From the NCBI RefSeq assembly GCF_010983895.1, contig NZ_CP048836.1:2542001-2606000 (forward strand): a stretch of 64,000 bases of DNA, given 5' to 3'. This DNA is from Nitrogeniibacter mangrovi. Lineage in GTDB: Bacteria > Pseudomonadota > Gammaproteobacteria > Burkholderiales > Rhodocyclaceae. The notes under the pieces are model-generated. The model was not told the origin of the DNA and ran no database searches. It saw nothing but the letters and a program-made list of their open reading frames with translations. Made by a program: the position numbers and the translations under genes. This document shows positions 1,567-63,379 of this stretch, in pieces; positions within the stretch are counted from its first letter, which is position 1; every line of letters begins with the position of its first letter.

Positions 1567-2151
1567 ATGGAACACGTTCTGCCCGAACTGCCCTATGCCA
1601 AGGACGCCCTGGCCCCGCACATTTCTGCCGAGACCATGGAGTTCCACTACGGCAAGCATCACCAGGCCTACGTGACCAACCTGAACAACCTGGTCAAGGG
1701 CACCGAATACGAAAACCTGGATCTGGAAGCCATCGTCAAGAAGGCACCGGCCGGTGGCGTGTTCAACAACGCCGCCCAGGTGTGGAACCACACCTTCTTC
1801 TGGAACAGCATGTCCCCCAACGGCGGCGGCGAACCCGCGGGCGCCCTGGCCGACGCCATCAAGGCCAAGTGGGGTTCCTTCGAAGACTTCAAGAAGGCCT
1901 TCACCGCTTCGGCCGTCGGCAACTTCGGCTCCGGCTGGACCTGGCTGGTCAAGAAGGCGGACGGCGCCGTGGACATCGTCAACACGACCGCCGCCGCCAC
2001 GCCCCTGACCACCGGTGACAAGGCGCTGCTCTGTATCGACGTGTGGGAGCATGCCTACTACATCGACTACCGCAACCGTCGTCCGGACTTCGTGGCCACC
2101 TTCCTGAACAGCCTGGTCAACTGGGAGTTCGCGGCGAAGAACTTCGCTTGA
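1567..2151 (+). CDS. sodB: Superoxide dismutase, Fe type
   Basis: Cytoplasmic iron superoxide dismutase, which converts superoxide to oxygen and hydrogen peroxide. The 194-residue length is typical of bacterial FeSOD. Metal ligands can be placed at His27 (EFHYGKHH), His75 (QVWNHTFFW) and the Asp and His of [13 protein letters not shown]. Gln71 in NNAAQVWNH is the Gln position characteristic of Fe rather than Mn enzymes, as is GSGWTWLV. A strong AAGGAGA (1556-1562) precedes the ATG and decides the start. The upstream palindrome suggests Fe-S-responsive control. The gene runs directly into the 79-bp repeat array. Confidence 0.97.
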
Positions 2152-2159
2152 GGTGAATT

Positions 2160-2750
2160 GACGGCCCCCACGCTCGCATCCGCTCGCTGCCCCCCGAGGG
2201 GGCGGCGCCGCCCTTGGGGCGGCCCGGCGGACGGCGCGGACGGCCACCACGCTCGCATCCGCTCGCTGCCCCCCGAGGGGGCGGCGCCGCCCTTGGGGCG
2301 GCCCGGCGGACGGCGCGGACGGCCCCCATGCTCGCATCCGCTCGCTGCCCCCCGAGGGGGCGGCGCCGCCCTTGGGGCGGCCCGGCGGACGGCGCGGACG
2401 GCCCCCATGCTCGCATCCGCTCGCTGCCCCCCGAGGGGGCGGCGCCGCCCTTGGGGCGGCCCGGCGGACGGCGCGGACGGCCCCCACGCTCGCATCCGCT
2501 CGCTGCCCCCCGAGGGGGCGGCGCCGCCCTTGGGGCGGCCCGGCGGACGGCGCGGACGGCCCCCACGCTCGCATCCGCTCGCTGCCCCCCGAGGGGGCGG
2601 CGCCGCCCTTGGGGCGGCCCGGCGGACGGCGCGGACGGCCCCCACGCTCGCATCCGCTCGCTGCCCCCCGAGGGGGCGGCGCCGCCCTTGGGGCGGCCCG
2701 GCGGACGGCGCGGACGGCCCCCACGCTCGCATCCGCTTGCTCCCATTGAC
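2160..2750. repeat. 79-bp GC-rich tandem repeat array, seven full copies plus a partial eighth
   Basis: Copies begin (at GCTCGCATCC) at 2172, 2251, 2330, 2409, 2488, 2567 and 2646, exactly 79 bases apart, and a truncated eighth starts at 2725. Copies are almost identical, differing at one or two bases such as CCCCCACG, CCCCCATG or CCACCACG at the junction. Each unit carries two adjacent hairpins: CCCCC-GA-GGGGG, and GCCGCCC-TTG-GGGCGGC. The unit has no stop codon in any of the six frames, so spurious reading frames cross it. It lies between the sodB stop codon and an intrinsic terminator and is not a CRISPR array, because there are no spacers. Confidence 0.95.
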
Positions 2751-2769: not shown

Positions 2770-2799
2770 AAAAAAGGACCGCTTCGGCGGTCCTTTTTT
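2770..2799. terminator. Bidirectional intrinsic terminator downstream of sodB and the array
   Basis: Stem GGACCGC (2776-2782), TTCG tetraloop, GCGGTCC (2787-2793), preceded by six A and followed by six T. This is a textbook Rho-independent terminator usable on both strands. It separates sodB plus array from the sigma factor gene. Confidence 0.93.
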
Positions 2800-2862: not shown

Positions 2863-3474
2863 GTGCCCGCCTCCGAATCCCCCGCCGACCGCGTCACCCC
2901 CGAGGCGCTCGAAGCGTTGCGTACCGACATGCTGCGCTTCGCCACCTTGCAGCTGCGTGACGAGCACCTGGCCGAGGATCTGGTGCAGGACACCATGATC
3001 ACGGCGCTGTCCAAGGCCGGACAGTTCGCCGGCCGCTCGACGGTCAAGACCTGGGTGTTCACCATCCTGCGCAACAACATCATCGACGCCATCCACAAGC
3101 GTTCGCGCACCATCAACGCCTCGGACTACGCGGCCGAGGGCGAAAGCCTCGATGCCGCCTTCGACAAGCTGTTCAAGGAGAACGCCCACTGGTCGCCCGC
3201 CTCGCGCCCGACCGACTGGGGCCGGCCCGAGGAGGCCATGGAGGAGCAGCAATTCTGGGCGGTGTTCGATGCCTGCATGGAGCATTTGCCCGAGAACACC
3301 GCGCGCGTGTTCATGATGCGCGAAGTGCTCGAGCTCTCCAGTCAGGAGATCTGCGACACCCTGGCCATCACCATGAGCAACTGCCACGTCATCCTTCACC
3401 GGGCGCGCAACGCCCTGCGCCGCTGCCTGGAAGGTAACTGGTTCGCCGACGGGGAGGCCTGCCCGTCATGCTGA
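2863..3474 (+). CDS. ECF-type RNA polymerase sigma factor
   Basis: Extracytoplasmic-function sigma factor, 203 residues. Region 2 is the segment with AEDLVQDTMITAL and KTWVFTILRNNIIDAIHKR (promoter melting and core binding). Region 4 is LPENTARVFMMREVLELSSQEIC followed by a helix-turn-helix ending RARNALRRC. The chosen start is GTG 2863 with AGGA just upstream. The frame is open far upstream through the repeat array, so automated callers may over-extend it; ATG 2929 is the other option. The stop overlaps the next gene, a short zinc-finger protein that is probably its anti-sigma factor, an arrangement like Neisseria RpoE-MseR. The regulon cannot be read from the sequence. Confidence 0.9.
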   Translation: MPASESPADRVTPEALEALRTDMLRFATLQLRDEHLAEDLVQDTMITALSKAGQFAGRSTVKTWVFTILRNNIIDAIHKRSRTINASDYAAEGESLDAAFDKLFKENAHWSPASRPTDWGRPEEAMEEQQFWAVFDACMEHLPENTARVFMMREVLELSSQEICDTLAITMSNCHVILHRARNALRRCLEGNWFADGEACPSC

Positions 3475-62635: not shown

Positions 62636-63379
62636 ATGCTTCCCCTGAAATATGCGCGCCTGGCGACCGCAGCGGTCGCCGTCCTCGGCGTCTCGTTCGC
62701 GGTCTCCACTCACGCCCAGACGCCCCCGCCGCCACCGCAGGGCCCCGAACCCTTCAGCGCCTTCGATCGCAACGGCGACGGCGTGGTCACCCCCGAGGAG
62801 TTCACCGCCCACCGCGAGGCGCGCCAGGCACAGCGCGCCGAGGCGGGCCGGCCCATGCGCCAGGCCGGACGCGGCCCGGAATTTTCCGATTTCGATCGCA
62901 ACGGCGATGGCCGCATCACCCCGGACGAGTTGTCCGCCGGCCAGCGCCGCGGCCCGATGCCGGGTGCCGGCGGCGGCCGGGGCCCCGGAAACGGGATGGG
63001 CCCCGGAAACGGGATGGGGCCCGGGAACGGACCGCGACCCGGGCCGGGCATGGGACCGGGCGCAGGCCCCGGACGGGGTCCCGGCGCAGGGATGGGCTCC
63101 GGCCAGGGCCCGGGTGCGCCCCGGGGCACGGCCATGCGCCGGAACATGCCGGCCTTCTCGGATTTCGATCTGAACGGTGACGGCCGCATCGACCCGCAGG
63201 AACTGCAGCAGGCGCGGCAGGCACGCATCACCGAGCGCGCCCAGGAAGGCCGCCAGATGCGGGGGCTTCAGGATGGCATGCCCGCCTTCGGCGACATGGA
63301 CAGCGACGGGGACGGCGGCATCAGCGCCGAGGAGTTCGGCCGCCATCAGGCGGCGCAGCCACCGCGCGAGGGGCGTTGA
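62636..63379 (+). CDS. Secreted EF-hand protein with Gly/Pro/Met-rich repeat
   Basis: 247 residues with a signal peptide (1-27 or so, ending THAQ). Four EF-hand loops: DRNGDGVVTPEEF, DRNGDGRITPDEL, DLNGDGRIDPQEL and DSDGDGGISAEEF, with all calcium ligands present. Between loops 2 and 3 is a low-complexity stretch built on repeats of GPGNGM and GPG (about residues 110-170), encoded by near-perfect 18-bp DNA repeats around 62985-63030. It probably binds calcium in the periplasm or outside. GGAGG eight bases before the ATG fixes the start. Confidence 0.9.
   Translation: MLPLKYARLATAAVAVLGVSFAVSTHAQTPPPPPQGPEPFSAFDRNGDGVVTPEEFTAHREARQAQRAEAGRPMRQAGRGPEFSDFDRNGDGRITPDELSAGQRRGPMPGAGGGRGPGNGMGPGNGMGPGNGPRPGPGMGPGAGPGRGPGAGMGSGQGPGAPRGTAMRRNMPAFSDFDLNGDGRIDPQELQQARQARITERAQEGRQMRGLQDGMPAFGDMDSDGDGGISAEEFGRHQAAQPPREGR

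Follow-up and report, generated by a model that had tools for sequence, protein, structure and literature searches.

A probable BRE array behind sodB of Nitrogeniibacter mangrovi: a stop-anchored repeat family with a covarying fold and a possible action on the upstream mRNA

The tandem array behind sodB in the window (the whole stretch of 64,000 nt of the Nitrogeniibacter mangrovi genome analysed here) is very probably made of Beta-proteobacterial Repeat Elements (BREs), an identity judged from the published loci and descriptions. The best explanation overall, which we consider reasonably likely from sequence comparison, is that an amplified BRE lies in the 3′ untranslated region (3′ UTR) of sodB and acts on the upstream mRNA. 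Known as a repeat but unexplained in function, the BRE is here found at a new locus, that of sodB. Three features described below go beyond the naming paper and are new: its fold, the stop-codon rule and its placement in operons.

Organization of the sodB array

Tandem Repeats Finder (TRF) reported a 79-bp array at 2160–2741 with 7.4 copies, 99% match and no indels (score 1136). A 35-base core of the array had seven exact matches inside it, against none expected from shuffles. Substitutions did not exceed one per unit: units 1, 5, 6 and 7 share one sequence, from which unit 2 departs by a C>A and units 3 and 4 by the same C>T. The first-pass annotation had described a near-identical array of seven units plus a partial one after sodB, and both points hold; the first CCCCC is found 13 nt past the sodB TGA. 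The array lies 3′ of the sodB stop codon and 5′ of the intrinsic terminator of sodB (Table 1), and the final five bases of the linker, GACGG, reappear between the units. The likeness of neighbouring units is in keeping with tandem duplication or gene conversion. An assembly artefact is conceivable; against it speak the single-contig genome and the variants within the units.

Table 1. Features of the sodB region (window positions)
Feature	Position	Strand	Basis
sodB, Fe/Mn superoxide dismutase, 194 aa, upstream of the array	1567–2151	+	ORF, protein matches
13-nt linker, sodB stop to first CCCCC	2152–2164	+	sequence
Seven 79-bp BRE units, tandem	2160–2712	+	TRF, blastn, covariance-model matches (first 2165–2238)
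BRE unit limits	2160–2238, 2239–2317, 2318–2396, 2397–2475, 2476–2554, 2555–2633, 2634–2712	+	
Helix H2 of unit 1, GCCCCC-CGA-GGGGGC, recurring every 79 bp	2189–2203	+	covariance structure, sequence
Helix H3 of unit 1, whose stem differs between loci and encloses the conserved top CTTGGGRCGGCCCGGC, recurring every 79 bp	2205–2237	+	covariation
Eighth BRE unit, truncated to its first 32 bases	2713–2744	+	blastn
Intrinsic terminator, AAAAAA GGACCGC TTCG GCGGTCC TTTTTT	2770–2799	+	sequence, same arrangement in congeners
Sigma-factor-like gene, next downstream	2863–3474	+	named by sequence reading, without family search

The SodB protein matches in congeners have at least 90% identity, and the sigma-factor-like gene is the downstream neighbour of sodB in the congeners read too. 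Reading the sodB–sigma intergenic regions of seven congeners (L056, L057, L058, L059, L060, L061 and L065), we did not find the array in any of them; two further congeners, L062 and L063, were left out of this count, since their loci could not be read clearly beyond the matched part. In all seven, a short spacer separates the sodB stop codon from a hairpin, which mostly has a T-run, and the sigma gene comes next; terminator-like hairpins occupy the equivalent place in most congeners. Because the sodB–sigma regions of the congeners are without it, the array appears to have been gained in the studied lineage, inside the presumed 3′ UTR of sodB and upstream of the terminator.

The eight bases ATTGACGG occur on both sides of the array (2157–2164 and 2745–2752); this pair is possibly a target duplication or a remnant of the original single insertion. 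Elsewhere in the genome (1448980–1449561) there is a second SodB-like gene, which is 73% identical to the sodB of the window.

Identity of the repeat

BREs were named by Hot et al. (2011) as repeats of 75–91 bp, in tandem, with few bases between copies and in variable number; the paper gives no function, fold or stop-codon rule (PMC3110155). We built a covariance model from 18 units of different loci in the studied genome. In G428, a genome of 4.0 Mb in a single contig, this model found two units directly past the stop codon of lexA, in convergent orientation to the gene that follows. A transposase near this array is one that we take to be IS481-like, and for this reason G428 is very probably a Bordetella. 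The identity is confirmed by this locus, because the same model thereby recovers, in an inferred Bordetella genome, the published two-copy lexA array (locus 3 of B. pertussis, two repeats between BP1793 and lexA; PMC3110155). In Paracidovorax citrulli DSM 17060 we observed four model matches, the number published for strain AAC00-1 (PMC3110155).

The array shares with the BREs of Hot et al. the sequence family (by covariance model), the length class, the tandem copies, the variation in number and the lexA locus. It differs in that one array of the studied genome has 11 copies, above the published maximum of eight (PMC3110155), and in that the sodB locus is new. The sodB copy is also richer in GC: the model matches in its 79-bp units have 85–86% GC, and the published Bordetella range is 63.7–78.9% (PMC3110155). 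Rfam gave no family match above the gathering score in the window, and locally only sub-threshold matches. The literature search found nothing for the repeat core as a literal sequence, and no later paper on the BRE after Hot et al. 2011. The Bor-1 stem-loop family (Petrillo 2006, Cozzuto 2008; PMC1590033, PMC2267715) is likewise a structured intergenic repeat of Bordetella, but, as described, its 196 and 128 copies are far above the BRE numbers.

Distribution and copy number

A search of the genome and its relatives for the unit, as proposed by the first-pass annotation, was carried out with the covariance model. The studied genome (4.24 Mb) has at least 59 BRE units, spread over about 20 loci that carry 1–11 units each, and further copies were found in relatives; all counts from model searches are lower bounds. 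The expected related single copies are thus present, as are arrays across the genome. BREs were found in at least 33 of 300 genomes of the order and in at least 45 of 121 genomes of one family, and their spread is patchy between genera and species. Outside the order we observed one weaker match in a class sample of 229 genomes, and the model search found none in E. coli or phages. Across the order, family and class samples, BREs are thus confined to betaproteobacteria.

The nearest named relatives of the studied genome are Denitromonas species. At orthologous loci the copy number varies between species, in line with the earlier expectation of copy-number variation: 11/2/3/1/3 at a type II/IV secretion ATPase gene, 1/2/3/1/2/1/3 after cobT and 2/6/1/1/2 at another orthologous gene. 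The closest relatives of a unit are the other units of its array, and each locus has its own variant. Orthologous units are 86% identical, as against 80% between other loci. This difference indicates that most loci were passed on by descent and multiplied where they are. The tandem period of L036 includes even TGTTTAG, with which the upstream gene ends, stop codon included.

BRE units also lie at the ends of draft contigs of congeners (L247, at the end of contig 48 of G007, and the start of contig 7 of G009). The data suggest that BRE arrays break assemblies and that draft copy numbers are underestimates; such repeats may break short-read assemblies, which is a practical concern.

A covarying fold

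From the alignment of 18 units of the studied genome, we derived a fold of four helices: H1, H2, H3 and H3 top. H1 is short and variable, H2 is GCCCCC/GGGGGC, the H3 stem has about nine pairs that differ at nearly every locus, and H3 top is GGG/CCC around RCGG. The covariation score of these 18 units was 0.284, compared with 0.072 for shuffled and at most 0.076 for slid alignments, with double changes at 11 pairs and 93.5% of the cells paired. An order-wide set of 61 units from other genera and families scored 0.550 versus 0.121, with 19 of 22 pairs changed on both sides; this second alignment was fitted to the model and leans its way, whereas the 18-unit alignment was not. Among the cobT orthologues the stem has drifted with compensation, e.g. 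CCCTCC/GGAGGG versus CCATCC/GGATGG.

Energy calculations gave a different picture for the sodB copy. Its minimum-energy fold (−47.0 to −47.2 kcal/mol) has a z-score of −0.5 versus dinucleotide shuffles and differs from the covarying fold, which is weaker in this copy (−33.7 kcal/mol); in GC-rich copies, that of sodB included, alternative folds are thermodynamically better than the covarying one. The two strong GC hairpins previously read in each unit do appear in the minimum-energy fold, but their energy is no better than that of shuffles. Since the energy of the sodB copy matches that of shuffled sequence, fold stability alone is no proof of structure, and we rejected it as evidence here. The evidence for BRE structure is the covariation between loci. 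A pseudoknot of the 5′ CCCCCA with the TTGGGG of H3 was also rejected: where GGG has become GAG or CGG, the compensating change is within H3, and the 5′ CCCCC is unchanged.

Most BREs begin just past stop codons, and many lie inside apparent operons

Coding-like open frames were recognised by their third-position GC, and for each array we took the distance to the nearest stop codon on its strand. The loci were every array of the studied genome and a set in relatives, chosen by match score and not randomly; 100 of these 127 arrays begin −1 to 16 nt past a same-strand coding-like stop. In the genus set the figure is 67 of 80 arrays, with 34 different upstream gene clusters, and in the order set outside the genus it is 33 of 47. 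For random positions at the same loci the values were 1.5% (genus set) and 1.2% (order set), and on the opposite strand, at the other array end, 1/80 and 3/47 (4/127 in total). After 16 nt, the next stop distance is 133 nt in the genus set and 39 in the order set. Orthologous loci were counted separately, so that significance by the binomial p-values is overstated; the anchoring to stop codons is not in doubt. A start within 16 bases past a stop codon of the sense strand suggests that the BRE works in mRNA.

The linker between stop codon and BRE is purine-rich, and some arrays precede convergent genes. About a fifth of the arrays have no recognised stop codon 5′ of them. One such exception is a group of orthologous loci in several Denitromonas (L041, L223, L245, L246, L250 and L254), where the BRE seems to be at the start of a divergent gene.

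Many BREs lie between the genes of apparent operons. In the studied genome these include mraW|ftsL, mreD|pbp2, cobT|cobS, nifU|nifS, permease|permease and DUF934|PAPS reductase. Three units are found at ureB|ureC of D. iodatirespirans, and a plasmid of Azoarcus KH32C has a BRE just past a transketolase stop codon (transketolase subunits). On a plasmid of Variovorax PBL-E5, a BRE separates an ABC substrate-binding protein gene from a permease gene, as in malE-REP-malF. In Acidovorax temperans, one copy lies antisense to the neighbouring genes. The genes upstream of BREs include those for SodB, peroxiredoxin, aldolase and tRNA synthetases, and the genes downstream of some intra-operon BREs (mraW|ftsL, mreD|pbp2) are normally essential.

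Possible action on the upstream mRNA

Taken together, the sense orientation, the fixed closeness to the stop codon, the conserved fold and the operon placement point to an action at the mRNA level, and we consider it probable that the BRE acts as RNA on its upstream gene. In the studied lineage, a single BRE would have entered the sodB 3′ UTR ahead of the terminator, and tandem duplication with homogenisation would have multiplied it on the spot. Its stem-loops would form in the mRNA directly behind the stop codon once the ribosomes are gone and would block 3′-to-5′ exonucleases, so that the mRNA of the upstream ORF would be kept longer than the downstream part, as with the REP between malE and malF. 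Structures at 3′ ends that lack a U-tract do protect upstream operon segments (PMC5927463). The BRE resembles these malE-malF-type structures in being stable, free of a U-tract and placed between genes of one operon; it differs in that they are mostly individual, while the BRE is one repeat family with a shared fold.

A role as RNA stabiliser in the sodB 3′ UTR, as had been proposed from the sequence, is the reading that we favour. Protection from exonucleases, for which the abundance of the upstream proteins and the position of the strong helices beyond the terminating ribosome both speak, would be the main effect of BREs with a chance that we place just short of even. The closeness to the stop may instead slow ribosome release and dampen expression. 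The sign of the effect, and that seven copies would do more than one, are guesses on our part.

Three other explanations were weighed against this one. A transcription terminator or barrier, another role proposed by the first-pass annotation, would account for GC-rich stem-loops past stop codons and for the arrays before convergent genes. However, no T-run follows H3 and the units have no U-tract, the sodB array already has a standard intrinsic terminator 3′ of it, and copies lie inside apparent operons, where strong termination would silence the normally essential genes downstream; BREs are therefore unlikely to be strong terminators, and we regard this role as highly improbable. A ribosome-stalling element, in which a structure no more than about 15 nt from the stop codon would impede termination, so that the upstream gene is translated less, is unlikely but better founded. 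The −1 to 16 nt cut-off fits such an effect and equals the <16-nt rule reported for E. coli REPs that down-regulate translation, as cited in PMC12306157, and the linker is purine-rich. Against stalling, the strongest helices, H2 and H3, begin only about 24–40 nt past the start of the element, leaving the weak H1 alone near the stop, and the upstream genes include those of abundant housekeeping proteins.

It is also conceivable, though we think it quite unlikely, that the BRE is a MITE- or REP-like mobile element, non-autonomous and moved as single-stranded hairpin DNA, its position past stop codons being merely where insertion is tolerated. Hot et al. suggested past mobility (PMC3110155), the distribution is patchy between genera and species, the gain at sodB is lineage-specific, ATTGACGG flanks that array like a target duplication, and a unit rich in hairpins, with covariation, would suit single-stranded DNA as well. 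Yet tolerance alone explains neither the near-universal sense orientation nor the 16-nt cut-off; no general flanking duplication was found at the other loci; and no Y1 (RAYT-type) transposase was found in five BRE-bearing, BRE-rich genomes, while the Y1 transposase of the studied genome is flanked by a different palindrome, GTAGGGCGGG. We accordingly rejected a RAYT/REP origin as necessary. The REPs and BIMEs of enterobacteria and pseudomonads are similar in being dispersed 3′-end hairpin repeats, sometimes in tandem, of which a share lies at most 15 nt from a stop codon. In contrast to them, the BRE has no GTAG/CGTC tag or RAYT, is twice as long, asymmetric and strongly oriented; a terminal GTAG/CGTC tag on a 20–40 bp palindrome was not found in the 79-bp unit. 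On the best reading, the BRE is a 3′-UTR element that acts like a REP without belonging to the REPs.

The oriented position of the BRE close to stop codons, its covarying fold and its place in operons together yield a testable hypothesis on mRNA 3′ ends in a large group of environmental and pathogenic bacteria. More broadly, and doubtfully, the BRE might be an unrecognised, widespread structured RNA of Burkholderiales. Anchored at stop codons, it would have the ribosome that terminates there and the newly made 3′ end of the mRNA as its targets, and tandem copy number would serve as a tuning dial, e.g. at sodB. If copy number does set the mRNA level, tandem slippage would be a fast way of tuning genes like sodB.

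Other repeats of the genome

The only Y1 (RAYT-like) transposase of the studied genome (L165, genome 2413605–2413937) is encoded within an ABC-type secretion operon, between its genes. On its flanks are many GTAGGGCGGGTTTCANCCCGCC palindromes, which form a separate REP family of the GTAG type. Within the window, an 18-bp coding tandem repeat at 62980–63030 encodes a glycine/proline-rich linker between EF-hand-like DxDxDG motifs.
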